Below the pieces are notes generated by a model. It worked only from the letters and a program-made list of their open reading frames with translations. It searched no databases and was not told the DNA's origin. Both the position numbers and the translations under genes were made by a program. A stretch of 64,000 nucleotides of DNA from NCBI RefSeq assembly GCF_000336775.1, contig NZ_AOLJ01000005.1, forward strand, positions 86,153 through 150,152. Direction: 5' to 3'. The number at the start of each line of letters is the position of its first letter. The first letter of the stretch is position 1. This stretch comes from Haloferax gibbonsii ATCC 33959. Its GTDB lineage: Archaea; Halobacteriota; Halobacteria; Halobacteriales; Haloferacaceae. Positions 40,906 to 62,694 of this stretch are shown piece by piece.

Positions 40906-42003
40906 TCACCACGACGTGATTGGGACCTCCCGGAGCGGCCCTGGAAGCGGGATATCGACCGTCGAATCGGTGTAGTGCGAGAGGTAGAACCCGACGATGA
41001 TTTCGAGCGAGCGGGTCGCCGCGACGCCGGGCGAGTAGTTCTCCGCCGTCCCGTCGAGGAGGTCCTGCACGTGGGCCGCCGCGTTGGCGAACGACCCCTT
41101 GTAGTCCGATTCCCACGTCCACGCGCCCTCGATGCCGGGGAGCGGTCGCTCGACGTGTTCGCCGTCTTCGAGCGACCAGTAGCGCCACTCGCCGTCGTCG
41201 TTGTTCATGTAGAGCTTGCCCTCGGTGCCGATGAAGCTCAGCGTCATCGACGAGATATCGCGCGGAATCGTGCAGTCTACCGTGACGAACGTGCCGTCGT
41301 CCATGACGACGTGTCCGCCGCCGCCGGCGTCGACGACCGACTCCGTGGCGTCCAGCGCGTCGAGCGCCTCGTTCTCGCCGGTGATGTGGCCGCTCACCCG
41401 CGACGCCCGCGCGTCGAGGAGGTAGACGAGCGTGTCGAGGACGTGCGTGGAGTTCCGCATGAGTTCCATGCGGTACTGCGCGCTCACGGACTTCACCTCG
41501 CCGAGGATGCCCTCCTCGCGGACGAGGTCGCGGAGTCGGCGAAGCTTGTCCGTGAACCGGAAGGAGTGGTTGATGACGAGTTCCGTGTCGGCCTCCTCGC
41601 AGACGGCGACCATCTCCTCGGCGTCGCTGACGGACGACGCGATGGGCTTCTCGCACCAGATGACCGAGGGGTCGGCCGCGGAGCGCGCGGCGTCGACGAC
41701 GTGGTCGCGGTGGAGGAACGACGGCGTGCAGACCGACACGGCGTCGAGGTCCTCGGCCTCGAGCATCGCCTCGTGGCCGACGTACCGGCGGTCCGCGGGG
41801 ATGTCCCACGCCTCGCCGAAGGTGTCCAGTTTCGCCTCGTCCACGTCGGCGACGGCGACGAGTTCGATGTCGTCGGTCGCGGCGTACCCGCCCGCGTGGC
41901 TCGCGTCGATTTTCTCTCTGCCGATGGCCTCCTCGTCGTGCATGCCGAGGATGCCCATCCCTGCGATGCCGCCCGTGCCGATGATGCCTGCGTGGTAGGT
42001 CAT
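40906..42003 (-). CDS. Gfo/Idh/MocA-family oxidoreductase
   Basis: 365 residues. N-terminal Rossmann fold GIIGTGGIAGMGILGM, the DVDEAKL turn, and the EKPIASSVSDAEEMV block with the family lysine. The C-terminal beta-sheet domain contains SFIGTEGKLYMNNDDGEW. Such enzymes oxidise, reduce or hydrolyse sugars and sugar acids using tightly or loosely bound NAD(P). It sits between the rhamnose genes and the GH105 gene in the same orientation as the latter, so a sugar released by GH105 or GH28 is a plausible substrate (inference). Confidence 0.88.
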   Translation of the reverse strand: MTYHAGIIGTGGIAGMGILGMHDEEAIGREKIDASHAGGYAATDDIELVAVADVDEAKLDTFGEAWDIPADRRYVGHEAMLEAEDLDAVSVCTPSFLHRDHVVDAARSAADPSVIWCEKPIASSVSDAEEMVAVCEEADTELVINHSFRFTDKLRRLRDLVREEGILGEVKSVSAQYRMELMRNSTHVLDTLVYLLDARASRVSGHITGENEALDALDATESVVDAGGGGHVVMDDGTFVTVDCTIPRDISSMTLSFIGTEGKLYMNNDDGEWRYWSLEDGEHVERPLPGIEGAWTWESDYKGSFANAAAHVQDLLDGTAENYSPGVAATRSLEIIVGFYLSHYTDSTVDIPLPGPLREVPITSW

Positions 42004-42105: not shown

Positions 42106-43173
42106 TCAGTCGAGCGCGGCCGCGGCCATGAGGAACCAGCCCTGCCCGTAAGGCGTGTCCGTCAGGGGTGCTTCGGGACCGCCCGGCGGCCCTGCGACGC
42201 GGTTGACCGCGCCCGCTTCGCCGACGACGCGGGAGACGGCCGCAAGCCCGTCTTCGGCGGGTTGGCGGTAGGTCTCCTCGTCGAGGATGCCGAGGTCGAT
42301 GCCGCGGGCGAAGGCGTAGGCGAACATGAGCGTCCCCGACGACTCCAGCGGCGTGTGGGGGTCGTCGACGAGGTTGTGCCAGAAGCCGCTGCCGTCCTGC
42401 AGCGGGAGGAGCGCCTCGCAGTGCGACCGGAACAGGTCGAGGAGGTCGTCGCGCTTCGGGTGGTCCTCGGGGAGCCGTTCGAGCACGTCAGCCGACGCGG
42501 AGGCGGCCCAGCCGTTGCCGCGCGCCCAGAACGCGCCCTGCGGGTAGTGGTTCGGCTGTTCGACCCAGATGTGTCGGAACAGGCCCGTGTGACTGTCGCG
42601 GAGGTGCGCCGCGTGAATCAGAATCTGCTCGACCGCCTCGTCGAAGGCGTCGTCGTCGCCCGCGGCCGCGCCGTAGCGCGCGAGGAACGGGCACATCATG
42701 TAGACGGAGTCGATCCACAGCGACTTGATGCCCGCGAGTTCGGGGTCGTGGTGGGGGATGCCGCCGTCTTCGGTCCGCTCGAAGGAGAGCAGCGATTCGT
42801 AGGCGCGCTCGGCCGCGTCGAGGTAGCGGTCCTCGCCCGTGCGGTCGTAGAAGTCGAGGACGCCGTGGCCGATGGCGGTGCTGTTGTTCGTGTTCATGCA
42901 CTTCTTGACGGTCAGCTCCCAGCTCGCCTCGTACTCGCGGCCGTGGCTGAAGACCTCGATCGGGTAGCTCGGGCCGTAGCTCAACTGCCCGGCGTCGTTC
43001 TGGGTCGCCACCGCGGTGTCGACGAAGTGCTTCGCGCGCTCGACCGACTCGTCTCCGCCCTCGGCGAGCAGGCCGTTGATGGCGACGCCGGTGATCCACG
43101 ATTGACCGTCGATGTCCAACGACCGGAGATACGACGCGGCGCGCTGGACTGGTGTAAGCTCGTCTGCTGGCAT
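42106..43173 (-). CDS. GH105-type unsaturated uronyl hydrolase (YteR/RhiN-like)
   Basis: 355 residues from the ATG at 43173. The (alpha/alpha)6-barrel family pattern includes NNSTAIGHGVLDFYDRTGE, GIKSLWIDSVYMMCPFLARY (Asp155, position of the general acid) and WARGNGW at 216-222. GH105 enzymes remove the 4,5-unsaturated uronic acid left by polysaccharide lyases from rhamnogalacturonan or ulvan oligomers. No signal peptide, so cytoplasmic action on imported oligosaccharides is predicted. Divergent from the IclR gene at 43362. Confidence 0.85.
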   Translation of the reverse strand: MPADELTPVQRAASYLRSLDIDGQSWITGVAINGLLAEGGDESVERAKHFVDTAVATQNDAGQLSYGPSYPIEVFSHGREYEASWELTVKKCMNTNNSTAIGHGVLDFYDRTGEDRYLDAAERAYESLLSFERTEDGGIPHHDPELAGIKSLWIDSVYMMCPFLARYGAAAGDDDAFDEAVEQILIHAAHLRDSHTGLFRHIWVEQPNHYPQGAFWARGNGWAASASADVLERLPEDHPKRDDLLDLFRSHCEALLPLQDGSGFWHNLVDDPHTPLESSGTLMFAYAFARGIDLGILDEETYRQPAEDGLAAVSRVVGEAGAVNRVAGPPGGPEAPLTDTPYGQGWFLMAAAALD

Positions 43174-43186
43174 GGGTACAGTACCC
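43174..43186. promoter_or_regulatory. Palindrome at GH105 start
   Basis: GGGTACAGTACCC, a perfect 6-bp inverted repeat about one base, directly abutting the GH105 start codon (minus strand). If the gene is leaderless, the palindrome covers the transcription start: a candidate operator. Confidence 0.4.
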
Positions 43187-43361: not shown

Positions 43362-44135
43362 ATGAGCCCCCAACCGAACAAACGCCCCGGCCGAACAATC
43401 CGCTCGGTCCAGATAGCGTTCAATATCATCGACCTCCTGCAGGAGGAGGCGGGCATCGGGGTGACACGAATCGCCGACGAACTCGGCCACTCGAAGAGCA
43501 CGGTCCACAGCCACCTCCGAACGCTCGAAGAGCGGCGCATCATCGTGCGCGAGGGCGACGGTTACCGCCTCGGCCTGCGCTTCCTCGACGTCGCCTCGCA
43601 CGTCCGCGACCAGATAGGCAACTTCGACATCGTCCAGAAGGAGGTCGACTCGCTGGCCGAGGAGACGGGTGAAATCGTCCAGTTCGGCGTCGAGGAGTAC
43701 GGAATGGTCTCGTACCTCCACAAGGCGCAGGGCGAACACGCCGTCGAGACGCTGTCGCGGGTGGGAACCCAACAGCCGATGTACTCCACGTCGCTCGGCA
43801 AGACGATTCTCGCGTACCTTCCCCCCGAGCGCATCGAGGAGATCGCGGCGGCGATGGAGTACGAGCCCAAGACGGCGAACACCATCACCGGGCCCGAGGA
43901 GCTGTTCGAGGAACTCGAAACCATCCGCGAGCAGGGGTACGGCATCGACGACGAGGAGAACATCAACGGCCTGCGTTGTGTCTCCGCGCCGGTCAAGAAC
44001 GACGAGACAATCCTCGGCGCGATTAGCATCACCGGCCCGTCGAGCCGGTTCACCGAGGACCGCCTGCACGGCGAACTCGCAGACTACGTCCGGAGCGCCG
44101 CGAACGTCATCGAACTGAACACGAAGTTCTCCTGA
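43362..44135 (+). CDS. IclR-family regulator of the polyuronide cluster
   Basis: 257 residues from the ATG at 43362, supported by the TATA box 28 bases upstream. Winged helix (VTRIADELGHSKSTVHSHL, then IIVREGDGYRLGLRFLDVA) and effector domain (PMYSTSLGKTILAYLP, GYGIDDEENINGLRCVSAPV, SITGPSSRF). Divergent from GH105 and convergent with the aldehyde dehydrogenase. The matching inverted repeat near the SGNH hydrolase gene suggests it controls a dispersed regulon here (inference). Confidence 0.9.
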   Translation: MSPQPNKRPGRTIRSVQIAFNIIDLLQEEAGIGVTRIADELGHSKSTVHSHLRTLEERRIIVREGDGYRLGLRFLDVASHVRDQIGNFDIVQKEVDSLAEETGEIVQFGVEEYGMVSYLHKAQGEHAVETLSRVGTQQPMYSTSLGKTILAYLPPERIEEIAAAMEYEPKTANTITGPEELFEELETIREQGYGIDDEENINGLRCVSAPVKNDETILGAISITGPSSRFTEDRLHGELADYVRSAANVIELNTKFS

Positions 44136-44156
44136 GCGCGCGGGGGCCCGCGGCTC
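44134..44156. terminator. GC-rich hairpin between convergent genes
   Basis: Arms CGCGGG/CCCGCG (44139-44144, 44147-44152) extended by GAGC/GCTC across one bulged base, at the abutting 3' ends of the IclR and aldehyde dehydrogenase genes. Confidence 0.45.
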
Positions 44157-45606
44157 AGTAGTTCTCGTAGATGGTCTTCACCGACGAGAAGAAGTCGAGG
44201 CCGGCGTCGCCCTGCTCGCGGTACGTGTTGGTCGAGGAGTCCTTGTAGCCGCCGAAGGGGACGTGGAGTTCGAGACCGGTCGTCTTCTCGTTGATTTTCG
44301 CGACGCCCGCTTCGACCTCGTTGACGAAGCGCTTGCCCTCGCTGAGGTCCTGCGTGACGATGCTGGCCGACAGGCCGTAGTCAACGTCGTTGGCGAGGTC
44401 GAGCGCGTTCTCGAACGAGTCGGCCTCGACGACCGCCAGCACGGGGCCGAAAATCTCCTCTTGGGCGATGCGGGCGTCGTTTCCGACGCCGGAGAACACG
44501 GTCGGCTCGACGAAGTAGCCGTCGTCGTAGTCGTCGCCGGAGAGCCGGCTTCCGCCGGCTTCGAGCGTCGCGCCCTCCGAGGAGCCGATGTCGATGTATT
44601 CGAGCGTCGAGGACAGTTCGTTCTCGGAGACGTGCGGGCCCATGTCGGGGTCGTCGAGCCCGTCGCCGACGACGAGCGACTCGGCGTAGTCGGCGATGGC
44701 CGCGACGAACTCGTCGTACACGTCCTCGTGGACGATGGCGCGCGAGGTGGCCGTACACGACTGGCCGGTCGTGCCGAACGCGCCGACGCCGACGGTCTCG
44801 GCGGCCGCCTCGATGTCCGCGCTGGGCATCACGACGGTCGGGTTCTTGCCGCCCATCTCACACTGGACGCGCTTGAGGTCGACCGCGGCCGTCTCGGCGA
44901 CCATCGTCCCCACGGCGGTGCTGCCGGTGAAGGAGACGCCGTCGATGCGTTCGCTCTCGATGAGCGGACCGCCGACCTCGCTGCCGGAGCCGGTGATGGT
45001 GTTCGCCACGCCGGCCGGGAGTCCCGCGTCGTCGAGGCATTCGAGGACGATGGAGACGACGGCCGGAGCTTCGGACGCCGGCTTGAGGACGACGGTGTTA
45101 CCGGCGGCGAGCGCCGGGGCGAGCTTCCAGACCGGGATGGCGATGGGGTAGTTCCACGGCGTGATGAGCGCGACCGTCCCGAGGGGTTCGTGCTTCGTGT
45201 AGAGGTCCTTTCCGGGGGCGCTTGCGGACTTGACGGTGCCGCCGAAGTCCCGCGCCTTCGCGCCGTAGTAGTGGAAGATGTCGATGGCGCGCTGTACCTC
45301 GCCGCCCGCCTCGGAGCGCGTCTTGCCCTCCTCGCGGACGAGCACCTCGGTCGCCTCTTCCTTGCGCGCTTCGAGGTTGTTGCCGGCCTCGCGGAGAATC
45401 GCGCCGCGGGACGGGCCGGGCGTCGACGCCCACTCGTCCTGTGCGGCGACGGCCGCGTCGAGCGCCGCCTCGACGTCCGCTTCGGAGGACGCCGGGTGGA
45501 CGCTGACGACTTCGCCGGCCGCCGCGGGGTTCGTGACTTCGAACGTCTCTCCCGACTGGGAGTCTGTCCATTCGCCGTCGATGAAGTTACCGTAAGTTCT
45601 CGACAT
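44155..45606 (-). CDS. Aldehyde dehydrogenase, probable 2-oxoglutarate-semialdehyde (or lactaldehyde) dehydrogenase
   Basis: 483 residues from the ATG at 45606. NAD(P) aldehyde dehydrogenase with Asn152 (PWNYP), Glu250 (QCEMGGKN), FTGST at 227-231 and nucleophile Cys284 (TGQSCTATS). Length and motifs fit the 2-oxoglutarate-semialdehyde dehydrogenases of oxidative pentose and uronate pathways. The KdgD-like and uronate dehydrogenase genes at 48-50 kb support that role. Oxidation of lactaldehyde from rhamnose is the main alternative. TATA element about 29 bases upstream. Confidence 0.85.
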   Translation of the reverse strand: MSRTYGNFIDGEWTDSQSGETFEVTNPAAAGEVVSVHPASSEADVEAALDAAVAAQDEWASTPGPSRGAILREAGNNLEARKEEATEVLVREEGKTRSEAGGEVQRAIDIFHYYGAKARDFGGTVKSASAPGKDLYTKHEPLGTVALITPWNYPIAIPVWKLAPALAAGNTVVLKPASEAPAVVSIVLECLDDAGLPAGVANTITGSGSEVGGPLIESERIDGVSFTGSTAVGTMVAETAAVDLKRVQCEMGGKNPTVVMPSADIEAAAETVGVGAFGTTGQSCTATSRAIVHEDVYDEFVAAIADYAESLVVGDGLDDPDMGPHVSENELSSTLEYIDIGSSEGATLEAGGSRLSGDDYDDGYFVEPTVFSGVGNDARIAQEEIFGPVLAVVEADSFENALDLANDVDYGLSASIVTQDLSEGKRFVNEVEAGVAKINEKTTGLELHVPFGGYKDSSTNTYREQGDAGLDFFSSVKTIYENY

Positions 45607-46748: not shown

Positions 46749-47783
46749 TCAATCGTCCATGAGAGATTCGAGCTCGCGCGCGAGGCGCTCGCCGATGCGA
46801 ACCATCGCGTCGTCGCCGGGGTGAACGAGGTCGGTCGTCATCCCGCTGGCGGTCGGCAGGAGGTCGGGACCCTCCACGAGGTGGACGTTGTCGTAGCCGC
46901 ACTCGGCGACCACGTCGCGGAGGTGCTGGCGGAACGTCTCGGAGAGCGTCGCTTCCTCGTGGTCTCGTTTGTATTCGCGCACGTGCGGGAACAGCGTGAT
47001 GCAGGCGACGGGTTTCGTCGGGTTCGCCGCGGCGACGGTCTCGACCATGTCCGCGGCCCGGTCGCGGAACTCGTCGGGCGAGAACCGACCGACCATGTTC
47101 ACCGAAAGCGAGAGCGTCGCCACGTCCCAGTCGTCGCGGGCGGCGATGTGCTCGGCCATCGCGGGGTCGCAGTAGGCGGTCCCGCAGGAGCCGAGGTTTA
47201 TCGGGTCCGCGCCGAGTCGCCGCGCCGTCTGGTTGACGTACGTGAGCATCTCCGCCGACGGGGCCTCGCCCTCGGTAATCGACGTGCCGTACGCGAGGTA
47301 TCGGAGGCTCGGCACCTCGTCGGCGGTCGGCGGCCGCCGCGCGCCCTCGACGTCGTGGTAGTAGATGTGGCCGCCGCGGTGGTCGCCGGGGAAGACGAGT
47401 CGACACACGTCGGGCGCGTAGCGCATCTCGCCGGTCGCTTCGGGGTCGAGGTCGGAAAGCGACTCCGGGGGAGATAGTTCGACCGTCTTCGGTTCCGGCC
47501 CGAGCGTGAACTCCTCGCCTGTCGCCTGAAAGTCCCCCCAGAACGGACGAACGAGGCTGTTTCGCTCCTCGGAGGAGAGCGTGATACGAACCGTCTCCTC
47601 CGGGACGAACCGTATCTCGGTCCCCGCCGGGTGAGACATCCGCGTCTGCGCGCCGGTGTTCAGGCCGCTCCTGACCGCCTCCGGAACGCGGAGCAATCGA
47701 AGTCCCTCGCGGGGCCGAACCCGTTGGAGCGCCCTGACGTTGTGGAACTGAATGTCGTCGTGCTGGATATCGTCGTGCTGCAT
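46749..47783 (-). CDS. SGNH/GDSL-type hydrolase, candidate carbohydrate esterase
   Basis: 344 residues from the ATG at 47783 (MQHDDIQHDDIQFHN, a short duplicated start). SGNH blocks: nucleophile Ser168 in YGTSITEG, Gly201 (NLGSCG), Asn229 (SLSVNM), Asp318 and His321 (DLVHPGD). The N-terminal ~155 residues form a separate, probably beta-rich, domain. No signal peptide. Members deacetylate sugars and pectic oligomers, which fits the neighbours. The extended region upstream carries two palindromes (47896-47936). Confidence 0.8.
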   Translation of the reverse strand: MQHDDIQHDDIQFHNVRALQRVRPREGLRLLRVPEAVRSGLNTGAQTRMSHPAGTEIRFVPEETVRITLSSEERNSLVRPFWGDFQATGEEFTLGPEPKTVELSPPESLSDLDPEATGEMRYAPDVCRLVFPGDHRGGHIYYHDVEGARRPPTADEVPSLRYLAYGTSITEGEAPSAEMLTYVNQTARRLGADPINLGSCGTAYCDPAMAEHIAARDDWDVATLSLSVNMVGRFSPDEFRDRAADMVETVAAANPTKPVACITLFPHVREYKRDHEEATLSETFRQHLRDVVAECGYDNVHLVEGPDLLPTASGMTTDLVHPGDDAMVRIGERLARELESLMDD

Positions 47784-48422: not shown

Positions 48423-49361
48423 TCAGTCGATGACGCGGGCGATGCCGTCGTCGAGTTCCTCGTACAGTTCCTCGGCGCGGCGCTCGTCGGCGGCCGACAG
48501 CGACCGAATCGGCTCGCGGACGTTCCCGCCGTGCAGGCCGGCCAGTTCGAGGCCTTTCTTCACCGCGGAGACGCTGATCGCGCCGGGCAGGTCGTTGTCC
48601 TCGCCCGTCTCGCCGCGGAAGTCCTGGAAGGGAAGCGTCAGGTCGCGAATCTCGCGGGCGTGCTCCCAGTTCTCCTCGGTGAGCGCCTCGAACAGCGCGA
48701 GGCCGATTTCCGGGCGGAAGTTACTGACGCCCGCGGAGAATCCCTCGATACCCTCGTTCCAGAACGAGACGGCGAAGGGTTCGGCGAGGCCGTCCACCCA
48801 GACCACGTCGTCGTCCGCGGCGGCGACGGCGGAGCCGAGTTTGACCGGGTCCTCGATGGCGTACTTGACGCCGACGACGCCCTCGATGCGCGAGAGGTCG
48901 CGGAGGAAGGAGACCGAGGGGTCGAAGCCGCGGACGTAGGGAACGAGCGGCGTGTCGGTCGCGGCGTCGAGCTTCTCGTAGTAGCGGAGCAGTCCGCGCT
49001 CGTGGACGTAGGTGTGGTCCGGCGGCATGACCATCATCGCGTCCACGCCGATGCGGTCGTAGGCTTCCATCAGGTCGGTCGCGGCCTTCGTCGACCCGCC
49101 GACGCCGGCGAGGACGCAGGCGCTGTCGGGGAGCGCTTCGACGCTCGTCTCCGTCACGTCGACGCGCTCCTGTTGGGTCAGCGAGTGATATTCGCTGATG
49201 TTCGCGGCCGCGAGGAACGACGAGATACCGTCGCCGGAAAGCGACTTCGCGTTAGCTTCGAGTTTGTCGTGTTCGATCTCCAGGTCGTCGTCGAACGGCG
49301 TGAGCAAGCCGACGGCGACGCCACGGAGACGACTACGTACACGGTCGTCTGCGAGTGGCAT
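48423..49361 (-). CDS. DHDPS-family lyase, probable 5-dehydro-4-deoxyglucarate dehydratase (KdgD-like)
   Basis: 312 residues from the ATG at 49361. Class I aldolase fold of the dihydrodipicolinate synthase family: ISEYHSLTQQER, PLVPYVRG (Tyr142) and Schiff-base Lys166 in GVVGVKYAIED. The C-terminal AISVSAVKKGLELAG then GNVREPIRSL resembles KdgD rather than DapA. KdgD dehydrates and decarboxylates 5-keto-4-deoxyglucarate to 2-oxoglutarate semialdehyde. Divergent from uronate dehydrogenase, the first enzyme of the same pathway. KDG aldolase is the alternative. Confidence 0.82.
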   Translation of the reverse strand: MPLADDRVRSRLRGVAVGLLTPFDDDLEIEHDKLEANAKSLSGDGISSFLAAANISEYHSLTQQERVDVTETSVEALPDSACVLAGVGGSTKAATDLMEAYDRIGVDAMMVMPPDHTYVHERGLLRYYEKLDAATDTPLVPYVRGFDPSVSFLRDLSRIEGVVGVKYAIEDPVKLGSAVAAADDDVVWVDGLAEPFAVSFWNEGIEGFSAGVSNFRPEIGLALFEALTEENWEHAREIRDLTLPFQDFRGETGEDNDLPGAISVSAVKKGLELAGLHGGNVREPIRSLSAADERRAEELYEELDDGIARVID

Positions 49362-49587: not shown

Positions 49588-50427
49588 ATGGACGTCTTGA
49601 TGACCGGCGTCTATGGCCGGTGCGGCACCGCAGTCATAGACCACCTGCACGACGACGACGACTACGACTTCACGTACTTCAACCGCTCCGACCGTCCCGA
49701 CGACCACCCCTACGGTGGCTACGACACCGTCGTCGGCGACGTGTCCGACTACGACGCCCTCAACGACGCCGCGGAGGGACAGGACGCCATGATCCACATG
49801 GCGGCGTACCCCTACACCGACGGCACGTGGGAGGACATCTTCGAGCCCAACATCATCGGGATGTACAACGCGCTCGAAGTCGCCCGCGAGAACGAAATCG
49901 AGTCGTTCGTCTTCCTCTCGACCAACCACGTCATGGGCGGCTACGAGGACGAGTTCTCCCCCGAGATTTACGAGCCGGGTCACGGCCTCGTCGTCGGCCA
50001 CGACGACCCCGTCCGCCCCGACTCGTTCTACGGCGCGTCGAAGGCCTACGGCGAGGACATGGGCCGATACTACGTCGAGAACTACGAATACCCCAAGCAG
50101 TTCTACGCCCTCCGGGTATGCAGCGTCCGGATGCCGGAGTACGACCACCCCTACGGCGACGCCGAGCAGGCCGTCGAGAACGGCGAGTTCGAGCGCGGGA
50201 GCGCCGAGTACGAAGAGACCGTCGGGCGCATGAAGGCGATGTGGCAGTCCCGCCGCGACTTCGCCCACGAAATCGACTGCTGTCTGCAGGACGACAACGT
50301 CGAGTTCGGTATCTTCAGCGGCGTGAGCGACAACCAGCGCCGGTGGTACGACCTCGAACACGCCCGCTCGCAGATCGGGTACCACCCGCAGGACGACGGC
50401 GAGGAGTGGGATAGCCCGCCGGAGTAG
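49588..50427 (+). CDS. udh: NAD-dependent epimerase-fold protein, probable uronate dehydrogenase
   Basis: 279 residues from the ATG at 49588. Extended-SDR fold with GVYGRCG at 7-13, Ser111 in LSTNHVMGGY, Tyr148 and Lys152 (RPDSFYGASK). The blocks NIIGMYNALEVARE, STNHVMG, RPDSFYGASKAYGEDM and DNQRRWYDLEHARSQIGY align by eye with bacterial uronate dehydrogenases. It oxidises galacturonate or glucuronate to the aldarolactone. TATA box at about -27. Divergent from the KdgD-like gene. Confidence 0.8.
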   Translation: MDVLMTGVYGRCGTAVIDHLHDDDDYDFTYFNRSDRPDDHPYGGYDTVVGDVSDYDALNDAAEGQDAMIHMAAYPYTDGTWEDIFEPNIIGMYNALEVARENEIESFVFLSTNHVMGGYEDEFSPEIYEPGHGLVVGHDDPVRPDSFYGASKAYGEDMGRYYVENYEYPKQFYALRVCSVRMPEYDHPYGDAEQAVENGEFERGSAEYEETVGRMKAMWQSRRDFAHEIDCCLQDDNVEFGIFSGVSDNQRRWYDLEHARSQIGYHPQDDGEEWDSPPE

Positions 50428-50568: not shown

Positions 50569-52221
50569 ATGAAAGACACACCCACAGCCAGCGATTCGAA
50601 CCGAGCCTCGCTCACCAGACGAACCGCGCTCGCGCTCCTCGGGGGCACGGGTGTCGCGGCGCTGTCCGGCACCGCGGCCGCCCAGTCCGACGACGAACGC
50701 GAGGGCGACGAGAGTCGCGGGAACGGTCGCGGAACCGACGGAAAGCCGTGGAATCGAGACGTCGACGCGAACGGGAACAGCCTGTATAACCTCGCGTCGC
50801 TCGACGTGGACCACCTCTACACCTCGGCGCGCGACGCCGACGTCATCGTCTGGAAGGACGACGACGGGACGTTCCACGCGGACGGCGCGGACGGCGAAGT
50901 CGCGTCGGGCGACGGCGTCGTACCGGTCGCGCAGGCGGCCGTCGACAGCCTCACCGAGGGGCGGACGTGGAACGAGAAGGTGCTCATCGCCTCGCCCGGC
51001 GAGATTACCGGCGCGGACGGCAACCTCGAACTCCCGAGTTACACGACTCTCGACGCGCCGGTGACGCTCTCGATTCCGGACGGGGAGTCGGTGCCGCCGG
51101 TCGTCCGGGCCGTCGGCGCGGAACACGTCGAGGTAGAGTCCCTCGTCGTCGACGGGCCCGCGGCGATGGGTGTCCGGCTCACCAGTTGTTCGAACGTCCG
51201 TCTCGGCGACATCCGCATCACGGGCGTGACGAGCGACGGCATCCGCATCGACGGGCGGGGCGACGCGCCCCGGTCGACCGACATCCAGATGGGACAGATA
51301 TACATCGAGGGGAACGGCCACCACGGCGTCGAGACCTACGGCGTCGACCGCATCCAAATCGAGCAGGTCGTCGGCAACGACCCCGCGAGCTGCGTCGTCC
51401 TCCTCAACGACACCGTCGACGCGACGGTGAACAGCGTCGTCGGCCTCGAACCCGGCGGCCCCGCGGGCTACGCGACGTTCCGCGTCGCCAACGGCGCGCA
51501 CGACGTGACGGTCGGCGAGGTCGTCAGCCGCGGCGGCAATCGAGGCGTCTTCGGCGTCTCCGAGTGTTACGACATCACCATCGGCCACGTCAACATCGAG
51601 GGCGCGGAGGACCAGGGTATTCTCATCCAGAACTGCCGGGACTTCACCGTGCAGGGCGGCGTCGTCAAGAACACGAACGGCGACGGCGTCCGCATCGACT
51701 CGCGGAACGACGGCGAACAGCTTCCCGCGGAGGGCATCTCCATCAGCAACCTCCGGGTCTACGACGACCGCGACGAGCCGAAACAGACGTGGGGAATCCT
51801 CGAAACCGGCCCGGCGTGCAACCACAACCGCATCGTCAACAACGACGTGCGGGGCGGCGGAACGACCCGGAACATCGGGATTTTCTCGAACACCACGGTC
51901 GTGCGGGACAACGTCGGCGGCGGCTTCGCCGACGGCGAGGTGACGCTCTCGGCCGGCGAGTCGCCCGCGGCCCGCGTCGAGGGAATCAGCGAGTTCCCCG
52001 ACGTGACCATCCCGGGGAGCGTCGACGAACCGGAGGACTTCGAGGCGTCGGCGCTCTCGGTCCGCGCGAAGCCCGCGACCACGGGGTCGTCGGAGACGTA
52101 CGCGTGGGAGAGCTACGTGGAATGGAACGGCTCCGCCGGGAGTTGGGACCTCGTCTTCGAGTGGCGCACCGACCCCGGCGTCGACGTGCCGCTCGACTAC
52201 GTCGTGGACAAGACGCGCTGA
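50569..52221 (+). CDS. Tat-exported right-handed beta-helix protein, candidate polysaccharide lyase or hydrolase
   Basis: 550 residues from the ATG at 50569; a GTG at 50563 is also in frame. Tat signal TRRTALALLGGTGVAALSG then TAAAQ, probably cleaved and secreted. After an acidic spacer come many repeats of the parallel beta-helix kind (SNVRLGDIRITGVTSDGIRI, RDFTVQGGVVKNTNGDGVRI, GISISNLRVYDD). The C-terminal ~60 residues look like a separate beta domain. No catalytic signature of a named PL or GH family is evident. As the only clearly exported, non-transporter protein in the locus it could make the first cut of the polymer or bind it. Confidence 0.7.
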   Translation: MKDTPTASDSNRASLTRRTALALLGGTGVAALSGTAAAQSDDEREGDESRGNGRGTDGKPWNRDVDANGNSLYNLASLDVDHLYTSARDADVIVWKDDDGTFHADGADGEVASGDGVVPVAQAAVDSLTEGRTWNEKVLIASPGEITGADGNLELPSYTTLDAPVTLSIPDGESVPPVVRAVGAEHVEVESLVVDGPAAMGVRLTSCSNVRLGDIRITGVTSDGIRIDGRGDAPRSTDIQMGQIYIEGNGHHGVETYGVDRIQIEQVVGNDPASCVVLLNDTVDATVNSVVGLEPGGPAGYATFRVANGAHDVTVGEVVSRGGNRGVFGVSECYDITIGHVNIEGAEDQGILIQNCRDFTVQGGVVKNTNGDGVRIDSRNDGEQLPAEGISISNLRVYDDRDEPKQTWGILETGPACNHNRIVNNDVRGGGTTRNIGIFSNTTVVRDNVGGGFADGEVTLSAGESPAARVEGISEFPDVTIPGSVDEPEDFEASALSVRAKPATTGSSETYAWESYVEWNGSAGSWDLVFEWRTDPGVDVPLDYVVDKTR

Positions 52222-53336: not shown

Positions 53337-55193
53337 ATGGCTGGAAAGCGTTCAACCAACTGGAGTAGACGAGACCTTATCAAATACGGGGCAGTCGCTG
53401 GCACAGCGGGTCTGGCAGGCTGTTTCGATAGCTCGGGGCAGACGACGACGGAAGAGGGCACCGAAGGCGGCACGGACGGCGGTACGAGCACCGAGGGCGG
53501 CGCGACCATCGCCGACGACACCCTCGACTACCCCGCGGGCCGACCCGCGACGGACGTGCAGTTCAACCGTTACAGTCTCGGCAACTACGCGCACACCCTG
53601 CAGGACCAACTGTTCGAGGAAGTCGCGCGCGGCTACGCCGACGGGACGGTCCGACCCGACCTGCTCGAAGACATGACCGTCGACGGGCGGACCCTCACGC
53701 TGACGTTCCCCGAGGGGTTCAAGTGGTGGAACGGCGACGACCTGACGGCCGAGGACTACTACATCGGCCTCGAAATCGACCGCCTGCAGTCGCCCGAGCA
53801 GTCGCCCATCGAGAGCAACACGCTCGTGGACGACTACACCATCGAGCGGACGTTCAAGACGGCCGTCTCGCCCAACCTCATGAAGGCGAACGTCGCCGAG
53901 ACGTTCGTCAACACCCCGCGGTCGGTCTACCGCGAATACCTCACGCGCTACGAGGAAGCATCGAGTGACAGCGAGCGCGAGAGCGTGACGAGCGACCTCC
54001 TCGACATGAGCATCACGACCCAACAGCTCATCGACGAGGGACTCGGCAACGCGCTGTACCGCGTCACCGGCTTCAACTCCTCGGAGACCATCCTCGAGAA
54101 GTTCGAAGACCACCCGTACGCGAGTCGCACGGACATCCCGAACGTCCGCATCATCCCCGAGACGACCTCCGACGTGGAGTCGCTGTCGGTGAACGACCAA
54201 CTCGACATGAACCCCGACGTGCTCATGTCGGAGTCCCAGCAGTCCCGGTACCCGGACAACATCGAGAACGTCTACCGGCTCAACTGGTTCCGCACCCAGA
54301 AGTTCACGTTCAACTTCAAGAACGAGCACATCGCGAGGCTCCCCGTCCGACGCGCCATCGTCAACGCGGTGGACTTCGAATCGATGGTCGCCGCGATGCG
54401 GCAGGCCGGAACCGTCGGCGCGCCCGCCGAGAACCAGACGGCGCTGCGCTCGACGATTCACGAGGAGTACCTCGGTTCGGACTTCGTCGACCAGCTCATC
54501 GACTACCCGGTCGGCAAGGACCTCGAAACCGCGACGCAGCTGCTCGAAGACGCCGGCTACACCAAGGAGAACGGGACGTGGGTCGACCCCGACGGCGAGT
54601 CCTTCACGTTCACCGTCCTCACGCAGAACAACAACACCCAGGTGCAGGCGACGAAGGTCTTCAACGACCAGCTCAACGCGTTCGGCATCCAGACGAAGAT
54701 TAGCACGGTCAGCTCGACCGACTACTACCAGCGCCTCCAAACGTACGAGGCGGACATCTTCTGGATATGGCACGTCGCGAAGGCGCTTTGGCACCCGACG
54801 GCGTACTTCTCGAACAACTTCTACGGCATCGAGGTCGGCGACCCGTCCAGCGGGAACGAGACCGGCCCGACGGGCAAGCCCTTCACGACGACCATCCCGA
54901 GCGAGGTCGGCGCGACCGAGGTTTCGGGCAGCGGCAAGGAGATCCAGCCCGCACAGCTCATGAACGACCTGCCGAACTCCGAGTCGGCAGAACAGGTCAA
55001 AGAGCGGACCCGCGACCTCGTCCAGTGGTTCAACTACGCGCTTCCGGACTTCGTCTTCGTCGAGGAAGACTCCGGCTACTGGGGCGACACGCAGGACTTC
55101 TCCATGCCGACGGGCGACGACTACGAACTCAACACGAACCGGCCGGGCGAGTTCTCGTTCAAGAACGGATGGATTAGCTCGAACTCGGAGTAA
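53337..55193 (+). CDS. ABC transporter substrate-binding protein, family 5, Tat lipoprotein
   Basis: 618 residues. Signal SRRDLIKYGAVAGTAGLAGC carries the Tat motif and lipobox, then a Thr/Glu/Gly tether, so it is membrane-anchored outside. SBP-5 features include TLTFPEGFKWWNGDDLTAED, RRAIVNAVDFESMVAAM and the C-terminal YWGDTQDF region. Longer than the paralogue at 23954. Opp-type systems import oligosaccharides as well as peptides; the flanking GH28, GH105 and sulfatase genes favour an oligouronide ligand (inference). Confidence 0.9.
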   Translation: MAGKRSTNWSRRDLIKYGAVAGTAGLAGCFDSSGQTTTEEGTEGGTDGGTSTEGGATIADDTLDYPAGRPATDVQFNRYSLGNYAHTLQDQLFEEVARGYADGTVRPDLLEDMTVDGRTLTLTFPEGFKWWNGDDLTAEDYYIGLEIDRLQSPEQSPIESNTLVDDYTIERTFKTAVSPNLMKANVAETFVNTPRSVYREYLTRYEEASSDSERESVTSDLLDMSITTQQLIDEGLGNALYRVTGFNSSETILEKFEDHPYASRTDIPNVRIIPETTSDVESLSVNDQLDMNPDVLMSESQQSRYPDNIENVYRLNWFRTQKFTFNFKNEHIARLPVRRAIVNAVDFESMVAAMRQAGTVGAPAENQTALRSTIHEEYLGSDFVDQLIDYPVGKDLETATQLLEDAGYTKENGTWVDPDGESFTFTVLTQNNNTQVQATKVFNDQLNAFGIQTKISTVSSTDYYQRLQTYEADIFWIWHVAKALWHPTAYFSNNFYGIEVGDPSSGNETGPTGKPFTTTIPSEVGATEVSGSGKEIQPAQLMNDLPNSESAEQVKERTRDLVQWFNYALPDFVFVEEDSGYWGDTQDFSMPTGDDYELNTNRPGEFSFKNGWISSNSE

Positions 55194-55213
55194 GGTCAGA
55201 CGGCACCCCCAAC

Positions 55214-55238
55214 GGGCTTAACCACCACAATTAAGCCC
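55214..55238 (+). promoter_or_regulatory. Intercistronic stem-loop between binding protein and permease
   Basis: Perfect 8-bp arms GGGCTTAA/TTAAGCCC with a 9-base loop, 20 bases after the binding-protein stop. Probably allows more binding protein than permease by transcript ending or 3' protection. Confidence 0.6.
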
Positions 55239-55266
55239 TCTCACGCTAGAAGCCAAACTATTAATA

Positions 55267-56271
55267 ATGACACCAAAGTATTTGTTGAAACGTCTCGGGC
55301 AAGCGATACTGACGTTTCTCGTCACGATGACGGTCTCGTTTCTGCTGTACCAAGCCATGCCGGGTGGTCCGACGGAGGCGATGCGGAGCGTGATTCTCTC
55401 GCAGAGCGGCGGGAGCGTCGACATCGACCGACTGAACAGGATGATACAGCTCTACACGAACGTGAATCCGGACCAGCCGATGCACGTACAGTACTTCAAC
55501 TACGCGTCTGACGTGATTCTCCGGCAGGACCTGGGCACTTCGTTCTTCAAGAACGAGAAGGTCACGACGCTCATCATGCAGCGCATCCCGTGGTCGATGT
55601 TCATCAGCGTCTACGCGCTCGCGCTGGGCTACTCGCTGAGTATCTTCCTCGGCGTGATGACGGCCTACCGCGAGAAGTCGCGGTTCGACTCCACGGTGTC
55701 ATCTCTCATCATCGGACTCAACTCGATTCCGTACTACATCGTCGGTGTCGTGCTCATCTACTTCCTCGCCATCCAGAACAACTACTTCCCGACGGGCGGC
55801 CGCATCGGCTCGGGAATCGTGGCGGGGTACAACCCCGAGTTCATGCTCAGCCTCGTGAAGCACGCGGCGCTCCCGGCGATTTCGATGGGCGCGCTCGCGA
55901 CCTCCGGGGCGCTCGCCATGCGCGGCAACGCGATTCGCGTCCTCGGCGAGGACTACATCCGCGTGGCGCAGCTCCGCGGGCTCCGCGAGACCCGCATCGC
56001 CACGCAGTACCTCGGGCACAACTCCATCCTCCCGATGTACACGCAGTTCATGATCGGCATCGCCGGCGTCTTCAGCAGCGCCGTCATCGTCGAGGAGGTC
56101 TTCGCGTACCCGGGCATGGGTCTCCTGATGTTCGAGGCGGTCAAGACGCAAGACTACCCGCTGTTGATGGGCACGCTCATCGTGTTCACGGCGATTTCGC
56201 TGACCGCCATCTTCATCGCCGACCTCACGTACACGCTCATCGACCCGCGCATCTCGGTGGGTGAGGAGTAA
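55267..56271 (+). CDS. Oligopeptide/oligosaccharide-type ABC permease (DppB-like)
   Basis: 334 residues. N-terminal helix AILTFLVTMTVSFLLYQAM followed by PGGPTEAM, the loop VNPDQPMHVQYFNY and the coupling motif YIRVAQLRGLRETRIATQY. About six membrane helices. Followed 2 bases later by the second permease. Forms the channel with the gene at 56274. Confidence 0.92.
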   Translation: MTPKYLLKRLGQAILTFLVTMTVSFLLYQAMPGGPTEAMRSVILSQSGGSVDIDRLNRMIQLYTNVNPDQPMHVQYFNYASDVILRQDLGTSFFKNEKVTTLIMQRIPWSMFISVYALALGYSLSIFLGVMTAYREKSRFDSTVSSLIIGLNSIPYYIVGVVLIYFLAIQNNYFPTGGRIGSGIVAGYNPEFMLSLVKHAALPAISMGALATSGALAMRGNAIRVLGEDYIRVAQLRGLRETRIATQYLGHNSILPMYTQFMIGIAGVFSSAVIVEEVFAYPGMGLLMFEAVKTQDYPLLMGTLIVFTAISLTAIFIADLTYTLIDPRISVGEE

Positions 56272-56273
56272 CT

Positions 56274-57299
56274 ATGAGCGAAGCACATTCCGACTCGTTC
56301 GACCTGAAGGACCTCTACGACGAAGACATCGACCCGGACCCGGAATCGCGGGCCGACCGCGCAAAGCGATTCCTCGAAATGAATATCGTCGCCCCCGCGC
56401 GCATCGCGGTCGACGACTGGCGCGCGCTCGTCGGCGGCGCGATTCTCGCGTTCTTCCTCCTCATGGGAACCGTCGGCGTCTGGCTCGTCGAGCGGCCGAC
56501 AAGCGGTGACGCCCCCGTCCTCGCCGCGCCGTTCGAATCGCTCGCGTACCCGCTCGGCACCGACGTGTTCGGCCAGCCGATTCACGCCCAACTCATCCAC
56601 GCGACGCCGGGCATGTTCAAGATGATCTTCGCGGGCGCGGTCGTGAGCGTCGGCTTCGCCGCCCTCGTGGGCGTCGTCGCCGGCTTCGAACACGGCACTC
56701 GCATCGACTCGTTCCTGATGACCATCACCGACGTCGTCATCACGATTCCGGGGCTGCCGCTCATCATCGTCATCACGGCTATCTTCCAGCCCGAGAACCC
56801 CTACATCGTCGGGGTGTTCCTCGGCATCGACAACTGGCCGGGACTGGCGCGGACCGTCCGCTCGCAGGTGCTGAGCATCCGCGAGGAGTCCTACGTCGAG
56901 GCGTCCGAAATCATGGGCATCCCGCTGTCGTCGATTCTCCGGCGGGACATCCTCTCGCAGCTCATGCCGTACGTGATGATTAACGGGGCGCTCACCTCTC
57001 GACGCATCATCTTCGAGTCCGTGGGTCTGTACTTCCTCGGCATCCTGCCCTTCACCACGTTCAACTGGGGCGTGATGATGAACCTCGCGTACGAGGGCAA
57101 CGCACTCACCCGACCGGACATGCTCCCGTGGATGGTCGCGCCCATGGTCTGTATCTTCCTGCTGTCGTTCGGACTCGTCCTGCTATCGCAGGGGCTCGAC
57201 AGCCTGTTCAACGTCCGTCTCCGGGCACGCCACGCGAAAACCTCGAAGAAGAAAGGCACCTCGAAGAACAACCAATCGCAGGCGACCGGCGGGGACTGA
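56274..57299 (+). CDS. Oligopeptide/oligosaccharide-type ABC permease (DppC-like)
   Basis: 341 residues. Long acidic cytoplasmic N-terminus, first helix GGAILAFFLLMGTVGVWLV, the loop YPLGTDVFGQPIHAQLIHA, the coupling motif YVEASEIMGIPLSSILRRDI and a Lys-rich C-terminal tail. Begins 2 bases after the stop of the DppB-like gene. The PLGTDVFGQP loop differs from the usual GTDxxGRD, a possible sign of a substrate other than peptides. Confidence 0.92.
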   Translation: MSEAHSDSFDLKDLYDEDIDPDPESRADRAKRFLEMNIVAPARIAVDDWRALVGGAILAFFLLMGTVGVWLVERPTSGDAPVLAAPFESLAYPLGTDVFGQPIHAQLIHATPGMFKMIFAGAVVSVGFAALVGVVAGFEHGTRIDSFLMTITDVVITIPGLPLIIVITAIFQPENPYIVGVFLGIDNWPGLARTVRSQVLSIREESYVEASEIMGIPLSSILRRDILSQLMPYVMINGALTSRRIIFESVGLYFLGILPFTTFNWGVMMNLAYEGNALTRPDMLPWMVAPMVCIFLLSFGLVLLSQGLDSLFNVRLRARHAKTSKKKGTSKNNQSQATGGD

Positions 57300-57326
57300 C
57301 CCCGTGCCAACACCTATTACCAGACG

Positions 57327-58415
57327 ATGACTACCAACCAAACAATGCGAACGTCGAATCAGAACGACTCGAACCCGGACCAAGACGTCGTGTTCGAAGT
57401 CCGCGACCTGGAGGTCACCTTCGGGACCAACCGAGGCGAATCGAGAGTCGTCCGCAACGTCGACTTCGACATCTACCGCAACGAGACGCTCGGCATGGTC
57501 GGCGAAAGCGGCAGCGGGAAGTCGATGACCTCGTCCGCGTTGATGAACGCGGTCGTCAGCCCGGGCGAGACCTCTGGTGAGGTCACCTACTACCCGCCCG
57601 ACGGCGGCGAGCCGATTTCCGTGCTCGAACTCGACGAAGAGGAGCTTCGGAAGTTCCGCTGGGGCGAAGTCGCCATGGTGTTCCAGGGCGCGATGAGTTC
57701 GTTCAACCCCGTCAAGAAGGTCCGCGGCCACTTCAAGGAGACCCTCGAAGACCACAACCGCGACGTCGAGGCGGGGCTCGAACGGGCTCACCAGATTCTG
57801 GGCGACCTCTACTTGGACCCCGACCGCGTCCTCGACTCGTATCCCTACGAGCTGTCCGGCGGGATGAAACAGCGCGCGCTCGTCGCGCTCGCGCTCATCC
57901 TCGAACCGGAGGTGCTCGTGATGGACGAGCCGACCGCCGCGCTCGACCTCCTGATGCAGCGCTCTATCGTGTCGCTGCTCAAGGACCTCAAAGAGGAGTA
58001 CGACCTGACCATCATCTTCATCACGCACGACCTGCCGCTTCTCACTAAGCTCGCGGACCGGCTCGTCGTGATGTACGCGTTCGACATCGTCGAGGTCGGC
58101 TCGACCGAAGAGATTCTCTACGACGCGGCGCACCCGTACACGCGGTCGCTCCTCAACGCGACCCCGGACCTGAACGCGCCCATCGAGGAGATGCAGTCGA
58201 TTTCGGGCTCGAAGCCCGACCCGGTGACCAACATCCCCGGCTGTTCGTACCGGCCGCGGTGCCCGATGGCCGACGAGTCCTGCGCGGAGGCGGAACCGCC
58301 GATGGCGGACCGCGGCAACGGCCACCGAACCGCGTGTTTCTACCACGACGACGTGTCCGACGAAATCCCGATTCCCGCGATGGAAGCGGCCGAAGAGGGC
58401 GGTGAGGGCGAATGA
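57327..58415 (+). CDS. ABC transporter ATP-binding protein (DppD-like)
   Basis: 362 residues; a second in-frame ATG at 57345 is possible. Walker A GESGSGKS, signature LSGGMKQR, Walker B LVMDEPTAALD, switch histidine ITHDLPLL and the oligopeptide C-terminal Cys motif CSYRPRCPMADESC. Overlaps the DppF-like gene by ATGA (58412-58415). Partner ATPases are separate here, unlike the fusion at 19261. Confidence 0.92.
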   Translation: MTTNQTMRTSNQNDSNPDQDVVFEVRDLEVTFGTNRGESRVVRNVDFDIYRNETLGMVGESGSGKSMTSSALMNAVVSPGETSGEVTYYPPDGGEPISVLELDEEELRKFRWGEVAMVFQGAMSSFNPVKKVRGHFKETLEDHNRDVEAGLERAHQILGDLYLDPDRVLDSYPYELSGGMKQRALVALALILEPEVLVMDEPTAALDLLMQRSIVSLLKDLKEEYDLTIIFITHDLPLLTKLADRLVVMYAFDIVEVGSTEEILYDAAHPYTRSLLNATPDLNAPIEEMQSISGSKPDPVTNIPGCSYRPRCPMADESCAEAEPPMADRGNGHRTACFYHDDVSDEIPIPAMEAAEEGGEGE

Positions 58416-59473
58416 GCGTCGATAACTCCATCCTCTCGGTGGACGACGTGTCGGTCCACTTCACCGACAGCAGCGGCTTCCTCGGCCTGTTCGGCGAGCG
58501 GCAGACGGTCCGCGCCGTCGACGGCATCTCGCTCGACATCGGCGAGAACGACGTGGTCACGCTCATCGGCGAGTCCGGCTGCGGCAAGTCGACGCTCGGA
58601 AAGACCATCATCGGCGCACAAGAGCCGACTCACGGGTCGATTACCTTCCGAGGACAGGACATCTGGGAGGCGAAAAACAGCCGCGACCCGGACATCCCGT
58701 TCTCGGAGATTCGGCGGTCCCTCCAGATTATTCACCAGGACCCCGGCAGCGCGCTGAACCCGAACCAGCGCATCCTCACCTCGCTGATGCTCCCGCTGAA
58801 GAAGTGGAACCCGAACCTCGGCGAGGAAGAGCGCAGAAAGCGCGTCTACGCGCTCCTCGAACGCGTCGGGCTCACGCCCGCCGAGGACTTCGTCGAGCGG
58901 TTCCCCCACCAGCTCTCGGGCGGCGAGAAACAGCGCGTCGTACTCGTTCGGTCGCTGCTCTTGAACCCGGACGTCATCCTCGCCGACGAGGCCATCAGCG
59001 CCCTCGACGTGAGCCTCCGGGTGGAGATGATGGACCTGATGCTCGAACTGCAGGACCTGTTCAACACCTCCTACGTCTTCATCAGCCACGACCTCTCGAA
59101 CGCCCGGTACATCGCCGAGAAGTCCGGCGGCCGCATCGCCGTCATGTACCTCGGCCGCATCGTCGAAGTCGGGCCGATAGAGCAGGTCATCGGCAACCCC
59201 CAGCACCCCTACACGCAGGCGCTGAAGTGGGCGACGCCGAACCTCTACGAGGGAGAGGGAGACGACGACCTCCCGATTCGGAAAATCGACATCCCCGACC
59301 CGACGAACCGGCCGAGCGGCTGTCACTTCCACCCGCGCTGTCCGAAGGCGCGTGAGGTCTGTGAGACCGACGACCCGGGCGCGTTCGAAGACGAGGACGG
59401 CCACGCCGCGCGGTGCTTCCGCGCCGACGACACCCACGAGTACTGGGACAGTCCGAGCATCGTCGACGACTGA
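58412..59473 (+). CDS. ABC transporter ATP-binding protein (DppF-like)
   Basis: 353 residues. Walker A GESGCGKS, signature LSGGEKQR, Walker B ILADEAISALD (Ala in place of the usual Pro after DE), switch histidine ISHDLSNA and C-terminal CHFHPRCPKAREVC. Last gene of the importer operon that begins at 53337. Confidence 0.92.
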   Translation: MSVDNSILSVDDVSVHFTDSSGFLGLFGERQTVRAVDGISLDIGENDVVTLIGESGCGKSTLGKTIIGAQEPTHGSITFRGQDIWEAKNSRDPDIPFSEIRRSLQIIHQDPGSALNPNQRILTSLMLPLKKWNPNLGEEERRKRVYALLERVGLTPAEDFVERFPHQLSGGEKQRVVLVRSLLLNPDVILADEAISALDVSLRVEMMDLMLELQDLFNTSYVFISHDLSNARYIAEKSGGRIAVMYLGRIVEVGPIEQVIGNPQHPYTQALKWATPNLYEGEGDDDLPIRKIDIPDPTNRPSGCHFHPRCPKAREVCETDDPGAFEDEDGHAARCFRADDTHEYWDSPSIVDD

Positions 59474-59983: not shown

Positions 59984-61114
59984 TTACTCGACGCGGTTGG
60001 CGTCGATGTAGTCCCAGTCGAACGCGTAGCCGAGGCCGGGCGTCTGCGGGAGTTCGACCACGCCGTTCTCGTCGATTTCGTCCGGCGGGTGTTCGAGGCC
60101 GGGGAAGTACGTCTCGTAGTCGTGTTTCGGGTGCAGGAGGCCGCGCTCGTAGTACCGGCCGGGGAACGCCATCGTCCCGAGCAGTTGGAGGTTGGGCGCG
60201 TCGCGGCCGTGAATCTCGCACTCGATGTTGAACGACTCGCAGAGGCCGACCGCCTTCAGCGCCGGCGTGATGCCGCCCACGTCGTAGACGCCGACGCGGA
60301 TGATGTCGGCGATGTCCCGCTTTATCCACTCGGCGCGGGTGTGCATCCGACCCTCGGCGGTCTCGGGGCCGACGACGGCGATGTCGAGTTCGTTCGAGAG
60401 CCACTCGTAGGAGGACATCGAGTGTTCGTCCATCGGCTCCTCAATCCAGCGGAAGTCGAGGTCTTCGAGCGCCTTCCCGATTTTCTTGGCCTCGCTTCGG
60501 CTGTAGAAGTGGTGGGCGTCGAGCATGAGGTCGATGTCGTCGCCGACGCGCTCGCGGACCGCCCGGCAGGCGGCGATGTCCTGTTCGGGGTCGTCGCCGA
60601 ACGGCGGCATCCACGTGTGGAGCTTGACGGCCTGATAGCCCTCCTCGACGAGTTCCTCGGCGAAATCGGCGTACGCCTCGGGCGAGCCGAGTCCGTCGGG
60701 GTCGTCGTCGCCGACCATCGTGCTGCCGTAGGCCGGGACCGAGTCCCGGGCCGCGCCGATGAGTTGGTAGACCGGGAGGCCGGCGTCCTTGCCGGCGACG
60801 TCCCAGAGCGCGCAGTCGATGGGGGCGACGCGCTTGTCTGTGAGCGTTCCCTTGTTCAGTCGCTCGGCCCGACAGAGCAGTTGCCAGAGCTTCTCGCGGT
60901 ACAGCGGGTTCTCGCCGACGAGGTGCTTTTTCGCGAACTCGTTGGCCGCCTCGTGACCGCCGCGGCAGTAGCCGTCGGGGCCGCCGTCGACGACGACGTG
61001 CGTGATGGTCCGCGTCGACTCCCTCGGCTCGCCGGGGTGGCCGTGGCCCTTCTCGTCGGGGTCGATGTGGGACTCACAGCTGAACCGGATGGTACGGATG
61101 TCGCTGATCTCCAT
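59984..61114 (-). CDS. Enolase-superfamily (mandelate racemase group) dehydratase or cycloisomerase with unusual Lys-x-His
   Basis: 376 residues from the ATG at 61114. Predicted metal ligands Asp199 (LMLDAHH), Glu225 (WIEEP) and Glu251 (GPETAEG); His302 with Asp278 as the His-Asp pair. At the usual KxK position it reads VKLHTW, so Lys164 and His166. Family members dehydrate sugar acids (galactarate, galactonate, rhamnonate) or isomerise aldarolactones. Next to uronate genes it may supply the missing aldarate dehydratase or lactone cycloisomerase step. The long upstream frame is non-coding by composition. Confidence 0.8.
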   Translation of the reverse strand: MEISDIRTIRFSCESHIDPDEKGHGHPGEPRESTRTITHVVVDGGPDGYCRGGHEAANEFAKKHLVGENPLYREKLWQLLCRAERLNKGTLTDKRVAPIDCALWDVAGKDAGLPVYQLIGAARDSVPAYGSTMVGDDDPDGLGSPEAYADFAEELVEEGYQAVKLHTWMPPFGDDPEQDIAACRAVRERVGDDIDLMLDAHHFYSRSEAKKIGKALEDLDFRWIEEPMDEHSMSSYEWLSNELDIAVVGPETAEGRMHTRAEWIKRDIADIIRVGVYDVGGITPALKAVGLCESFNIECEIHGRDAPNLQLLGTMAFPGRYYERGLLHPKHDYETYFPGLEHPPDEIDENGVVELPQTPGLGYAFDWDYIDANRVE

Positions 61115-62673: not shown

Positions 62674-62694
62674 GGCCGAACTCCGACCACCAGT

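Follow-up and report, generated by a model that had tools for sequence, protein, structure and literature searches.

A Tat-exported beta-helix protein of Haloferax gibbonsii as a probable extracellular depolymerase of a rhamnose-galacturonate polysaccharide

Several families of right-handed parallel beta-helix proteins act on uronate polymers. The AlgE A-modules are secreted and bind an anionic uronate polymer in a cleft of the helix; the catalytic residues of AlgE4 are Tyr149, Asp152, His154 and Asp178 (PMC7385640). The PL6 and PL9 lyases act on alginate or chondroitin and on pectate and rhamnogalacturonan I (RG-I), respectively. Both families use a catalytic Lys. GH28 enzymes are right-handed beta-helices with an Asp triad, whereas the rhamnogalacturonan lyases PL11 and PL26 have other folds, a beta-propeller and a toroid plus sandwich. 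Rhamnose and galacturonate make up the repeat of RG-I. Growth of haloarchaea on pectin has had no reproducible demonstration, despite the lyase genes in their genomes (PMC9726719, PMC12343721). A secreted haloarchaeal enzyme that opens the rhamnogalacturonan backbone would be the missing first step of pectin use and would allow a direct test of it. Here we describe a candidate, encoded in a 64,000-nucleotide stretch of the Haloferax gibbonsii ATCC 33959 genome (the window).

Architecture and fold of the beta-helix protein

The gene product had originally been predicted to consist of a Tat signal, an acidic spacer, a parallel beta-helix and a distinct C-terminal beta domain. The open reading frame, the twin arginines R17 and R18 and an AlphaFold model confirmed this layout:

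50569..52221, plus strand: Tat-exported right-handed parallel beta-helix protein, 550 amino acids, read from ATG
50569..50682, plus strand: Tat signal region, residues 1-38, RR at 17-18
50683..50832, plus strand: acidic, Gly-rich linker and WNRDVDANGNSLYNL-type segment, residues 39-88, pLDDT below 50 and disordered in the model
50833..51936, plus strand: right-handed parallel beta-helix, residues 89-456
51937..52218, plus strand: C-terminal beta domain, residues ~457-550

An alternative start (GTG at 50563) gives 552 amino acids. The Tat motif is LTRRTALALLGG, whose two arginines, R17 and R18, are conserved in over 90% of a set of 26 relatives; the Tat route would imply, in our best explanation, that the protein is folded before export. 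The acidic, Gly-rich linker covers residues 39-58. In the AlphaFold model, made with 26 sequences (mean pLDDT 82), residues 89-470 are mostly above 90 and residues 1-88 are disordered. The C-terminal beta domain gave no PDB match at E <= 0.001 and, when searched alone, no structural match below E 1. Among the loci fetched, this domain is confined to the haloarchaeal branch, and no copy outside the beta-helix family was present in the fetched neighbourhoods. A different exported beta-helix-like protein (L043:2788-4890, minus strand) shares a QPWYDWSADVDAN-type N-terminal segment with the family but lacks its catalytic domain, and the segment therefore looks like a reused linker.

The protein had been thought to belong to no recognised catalytic family, which proved right at the level of sequence. 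Pfam at E <= 1 listed only Beta_helix (25.7 bits, 0.2 bits short of the 25.9 cut-off) and NosD (18.3 bits, cut-off 23.6), with no match to PF00544 (PL1, Pectate_lyase_4) or PF00295 (GH28). An NCBIfam search and a phmmer search of PDB sequences with the single window protein returned no match. Several relatives exceed the cut-off of Beta_helix, a repeat family to which no function is attached. Alignment to GH28 with hhalign gave only a generic 92-column repeat match, and in a profile search of the PDB the matches to AlgE were limited to the C-terminal rungs. The top two matches of that search, designed beta-propellers, were rejected as matched by a short repeat. A phage tailspike origin was also rejected: PHROGs tail matches were weak and partial, and 2.9 million viral contigs contained no relative. 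As judged by the tests run here, the protein is outside AlgE, GH28, PL1, PL6 and PL9. The family has no functional name in Pfam or NCBIfam, though it may already have a CAZy number, and our literature searches found no paper describing it.

Structure prediction and comparison with known beta-helix enzymes, as proposed in the original prediction, gave a confident beta-helix. Folds were ranked by Foldseek and VIA-align on the AlphaFold model, over the structural families that VIA-align lists. The A-modules of AlgE4 (2pyg) and AlgE6 (5lw3) came first, with Z 38.8-39.0 and rmsd 2.0-2.4 over 326-333 residues, and the window protein has the AlgE A-module fold. Phage phi29 gp12 was next (Z ~36), followed by a broad tie at Z ~30 of PL6, GH28, AlgG, inulin fructotransferases and tailspikes. 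The likeness to AlgE extends over nearly the full helix, to a cleft on the same rungs, to the anionic uronate polymer and to secretion, but identity is ~15-17%, no C-terminal R-modules are seen and the family lies in catabolic pectin loci. The common fold is no proof of function. GH28 shares the right-handed helix, the loci and probably the substrate class, but the window protein lacks a conserved Asp triad and a separate GH28 gene is present in the same locus. The PL6 and PL9 lyases are also beta-helices; in contrast to them, the family has no Lys conserved at 93% or above among 58 relatives and no Pfam match. PL11 and PL26, which are co-located with the family in several loci, presumably act on the same polymer.

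Conserved residues of the cleft

The candidate active site lies in one part of the helix:

51244..51543, plus strand: codons 226-325, with the invariant cleft residues R226, H252, E255, T256, Y257, N280, T282, Y301, R305 and N308

A set of 58 relatives, archaeal as well as bacterial, was retrieved by the pattern H[AG][VFI]ETY, so that conservation of H252, E255, T256 and Y257 in it is partly built in. In this set R226, H252, E255, T256, Y257, N280, Y301, R305 and N308 are invariant. R325 is conserved in 97% and D228 in 91% of these sequences, D228 being replaced by Gln in four. The bias of the pattern spares the residues outside it and also a set of 26 haloarchaeal sequences from a whole-protein search, in which R226, H252, E255, T256, N280 and several further residues are invariant and Y257 is conserved in more than 90%. 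By secondary structure, R226, E255 and R305 line up in a single outward column, and the adjacent column holds D228, Y257 and N280. Among the 58 relatives no Asp is invariant, which leaves E255 as their one invariant acid; this speaks more for elimination than for a hydrolase with two carboxylates, without deciding between them.

We compared the cleft with that of AlgE by a hand-made rung register. Its two fixed points were the HMM match in the C-terminal rungs and the structural alignment, which has almost no gaps, and the rungs were counted back by hand along the AlgE4 stretch 195-253. AlgE Tyr149, Asp152, His154 and Asp178 pair in this register with position 223 (not conserved), R226, D228 and Y257. 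As modelled, and with the register made by hand, the AlgE catalytic machinery is not kept, and the same cleft positions hold other strictly conserved residues. The protein thus has the acidic and Arg-bearing cleft expected in the original prediction: an invariant cluster of Arg, Glu, His, Tyr and Asn that this register places at the rung positions of AlgE Asp152, His154 and Asp178.

The window locus and the neighbourhoods of relatives

The window locus joins candidate pathways for L-rhamnose and galacturonate, as assigned from sequence matches:

32711..33508, minus strand: SDR dehydrogenase of the rhamnose cluster
33560..34462, minus strand: FAH-family protein, 2,4-didehydro-3-deoxy-L-rhamnonate hydrolase-like (best match NF053535, 222 bits, cut-off 500)
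36504..37709, minus strand: L-rhamnonate dehydratase-like (best match NF011968, 265 bits, cut-off 393)
37895..39094, minus strand: zinc alcohol dehydrogenase
39113..39982, minus strand: amidohydrolase, sugar lactonase-like (sub-threshold L-fuconolactonase)
40062..40364, plus strand: L-rhamnose mutarotase, rhaM (PF05336, 57 bits, above cut-off)
40906..42003, minus strand: Gfo/Idh/MocA oxidoreductase
42106..43176, minus strand: GH88/GH105 hydrolase, no signal peptide (PF07470, 207 bits)
43362..44135, plus strand: IclR-type regulator
44155..45603, minus strand: 2,5-dioxovalerate dehydrogenase (NF052305, 815 bits, above cut-off 750)
46749..47636, minus strand: GDSL esterase without signal peptide, rhamnogalacturonan acetylesterase-like by context (PF14606/PF13472)
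48423..49331, minus strand: DHDPS family, 5-dehydro-4-deoxyglucarate dehydratase-like, KdgD (NCBIfam below cut-off)
49591..50427, plus strand: NAD-dependent SDR, uronate dehydrogenase-like, Azf/UDH family (NF041293, 173 bits, cut-off 400)
53337..59473, plus strand: peptide/oligosaccharide-type ABC transporter (SBP5, DppB, C, D, F)
59984..61114, minus strand: enolase-superfamily sugar-acid dehydratase, galactarate dehydratase-like
61246..62736, minus strand: sulfatase family protein, no signal peptide (below cut-off)
62730..64000, plus strand: GH28, polygalacturonase/rhamnogalacturonidase-like, no signal peptide, running past the window end (L110:997-2613)

The rhamnose stretch (32.7-40.4 kb) also contains an IclR regulator. 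Most of its NCBIfam scores are below cut-off; the same gene set recurs in Halopiger, where the counterpart of the gene at 36504..37709 is annotated rhcD. In NCBIfam the GH88/105 protein scores best, though below threshold, against BglB, a model for beta-galactosidase. As originally described, the beta-helix gene lies directly after the uronate dehydrogenase-like gene, which ends 141 bp upstream, and the N-termini agree with its product being the only exported non-transporter protein of the locus, the other exported product being the binding protein of the transporter. The GH28 gene, which had escaped the original prediction, overlaps the start of the sulfatase gene and belongs to the same locus. 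Past the window end, a second Dpp-type transporter lies downstream of it (L111:10443-15451), followed by several similar proteins of ~360-420 amino acids and one hydantoinase-like protein.

One scan of 84,980 genomes yielded 385 relatives, so that one characterised member would name several hundred genes. Haloarchaeal relatives are found in Haloferax, Halorubrum, Halobonum, Halogeometricum, many Natrialbaceae, Haloarcula and Halosimplex, and others in Belliella, Salinivenus, Bacillota, Verrucomicrobiota, Sorangium and many Actinomycetota. In an order-wide sample the family has a scattered distribution, with members in 26 of 293 genomes and in 15 of 87 genera; a locus often has several copies, and in the tree the window protein falls within a well-supported haloarchaeal clade of 13. 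The names given to the relatives by NCBI go no further than 'RICIN domain-containing' or 'right-handed parallel beta-helix repeat-containing' protein. Some carry extra modules, namely ricin-B lectin repeats, LamG, dockerin or AGA-YXIM galactose-binding; secreted polysaccharide-active enzymes also carry added modules of this sort. One protein of 1962 amino acids from an Opitutales MAG (L067:9983-15868) has several tandem copies of the beta-helix domain in a single chain.

The relatives in haloarchaea lie in pectin and rhamnogalacturonan loci, which runs counter to the refuting case of orthologues always away from carbohydrate genes. Recurrent neighbours are GH78 rhamnosidase, PL22 oligogalacturonate lyase, PL11 rhamnogalacturonan lyase, GH28, GH88/105, GH106, GH43, GH42, GH2, GH4, GDSL esterase and a Dpp-type transporter. 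On Halopiger xanaduensis pHALXA01 the family gene sits between GH28 and oligogalacturonate lyase, in a stretch that also encodes rhamnose mutarotase, rhcD and a rhamnogalacturonan lyase. On Haloterrigena turkmenica pHTUR01, several genes of the beta-helix/RICIN type lie close to two rhamnogalacturonan lyases; pectin genes of this species were discussed earlier, in passages that do not mention the beta-helix family (PMC3102087). Strong PL22 matches occur in 11 of 293 genomes, 10 of which carry the family (Fisher p 2e-11, relatedness ignored), and all 11 strong PL22 genes in those 10 genomes are within 25 kb of a family gene. A divergent GH28 is present in 12 of the 293 genomes, 11 of them with the family, and 11 of the 12 genes there are within the same distance. 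Taken together, all but one of these 23 genes (22 of 23) are at most 25 kb from the family, in counts that ignore genome relatedness. A strong-scoring GH28 group serves as an internal control: it co-occurs with the family, yet none of its 11 genes is within 25 kb. Among bacteria, PL11 copies and PL26 surround the family gene in Belliella, rhamnulokinase is near it in Actinopolyspora, and the nearest genes are otherwise mostly unrelated or mixed, with some GH10, GH3 and CBM2. Gfo/Idh oxidoreductases recur beside the family (L038, L039, L116 in Halopiger, and window 40906-42003), in several loci with a TIM-barrel partner; they could provide an oxidative (3-keto) glycoside-cleaving route in place of the missing rhamnosidases.

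Proposed function and alternatives

The export motif, the predicted fold, the invariant cleft residues, the spread of the family and its co-location with pectin genes make it probable that the beta-helix protein is an extracellular depolymerase of a pectic rhamnose-galacturonate polymer of RG-I type. Its catalysis, substrate, endo action and place in the pathway would be as follows. The Tat-exported enzyme would depolymerise the polysaccharide outside the cell by endo cleavage, binding the anionic chain in the beta-helix cleft. R226, R305 and R325 together with N280 would hold the uronate, and Y257 or H252 with E255 would act as base and acid, as in beta-helix lyases and epimerases. The Dpp-type ABC transporter encoded next to it would take up the oligosaccharides, the GDSL protein would remove their acetyl groups and the cytoplasmic GH28 and GH88/105 enzymes would trim them, and the released sugars would enter the oxidative pathways for L-rhamnose and galacturonate encoded on both sides. 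The broader proposal falls a little short of even chances: an unclassified family of secreted beta-helix RG-I depolymerases, in which the AlgE fold bears a distinct active site of Arg/Glu/His/Tyr/Asn, would be common to haloarchaea, Actinomycetota, Bacteroidota, Bacillota and Myxococcota and would provide the extracellular step of an archaeal pectin pathway.

Searches of the H. gibbonsii genome itself gave no PL1, PL11 or PL22, which leaves the beta-helix protein as the only exported candidate seen. The genome also lacks GH78 and GH106 rhamnosidases and KduI, so that full use of unsaturated RG-I oligosaccharides is not accounted for. A KduI-family isomerase was absent from all 14 haloarchaeal genomes searched, several of which have PL22 and PL11, and hence KduI cannot tell a lyase from a hydrolase here. 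The genome does have a clear route for saturated galacturonate, which with the GH28 gene would suit saturated products. We lean slightly towards elimination rather than hydrolysis. The original prediction of a missing extracellular lyase or hydrolase, possibly of a new family, is thus well supported by the cleft and the loci as to extracellular depolymerase and possible new family, and its substrate is narrowed to a rhamnose-galacturonate polymer; the part in which unsaturated products feed GH105 is a conjecture. What chiefly speaks against a functioning pectin system is the absence of growth on pectin, on polygalacturonate and on rhamnogalacturonan in AArc-m2/3/4 and HArc-gm2 (PMC9726719), described haloarchaeal strains that have members of the family (loci L045, L054, L056, L060).

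An action on homogalacturonan (polygalacturonate) instead of the rhamnogalacturonan backbone, with the rhamnose genes serving other substrates, would fit the strongest neighbour links in Natrialbales, to PL22 and GH28. We regard it as unlikely, since PL11, PL26, GH78, GH106 and rhamnose-pathway genes recur beside the family and the window locus pairs rhamnose with galacturonate genes. A sulfated algal rhamnose-uronate polymer such as ulvan or rhamnan sulfate is a still less likely substrate. Genes of the sulfatase family point to it, both in the window (61246-62736) and close to the Halosimplex relatives, the window gene fitting plant RG-I poorly; rhamnose plus glucuronate could likewise be handled by the rhamnose pathway and UDH, and some loci contain GH115 alpha-glucuronidases. 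Against it stand the galacturonate-type neighbours (PL22, GH28, PL11, PL26), the GDSL gene and the fact that the window protein matches no lyase family in Pfam or NCBIfam.

It is highly improbable that the protein is an AlgE-fold enzyme that leaves the chain uncut, whether C-5 epimerase-like or of another kind. AlgE4 and AlgE6 are the best structural matches, at Z 39 some 3 Z above the next fold, and the C-terminal rungs have a weak sequence match to AlgE, but the AlgE catalytic residues fall on non-conserved 223, R226, D228 and Y257, and the family loci are catabolic. We give as little weight to a non-catalytic surface polysaccharide-binding protein or adhesin: relatives have lectin-type modules and beta-helix adhesins such as PfbA are in the fold list, but a polar cleft so strictly conserved in archaea, Bacteroidota, Actinomycetota, Bacillota and Myxococcota alike is what one expects of an enzyme. 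Degradation of glycosaminoglycans (GH88 plus sulfatase, PMC13260240), which the GH88 match had suggested, was set aside, the neighbours being pectic and rhamnose genes.

A related genome bears on the extracellular RG-I depolymerase proposed here. In G275, of the same genus, the locus (contig C8, L113) matches window 42816-64000 with 93-97% identity, except that precisely 50443-52299, which contains the beta-helix gene, is missing, with a junction of ~6 bases. Loss of the gene in G275 is a simpler reading than gain; G245, of another genus, retains it in place. Absence of the beta-helix gene with the intracellular pathway retained is as expected for an extracellular step. The near-identical Haloferax locus without this gene alone offers a ready-made natural comparison.
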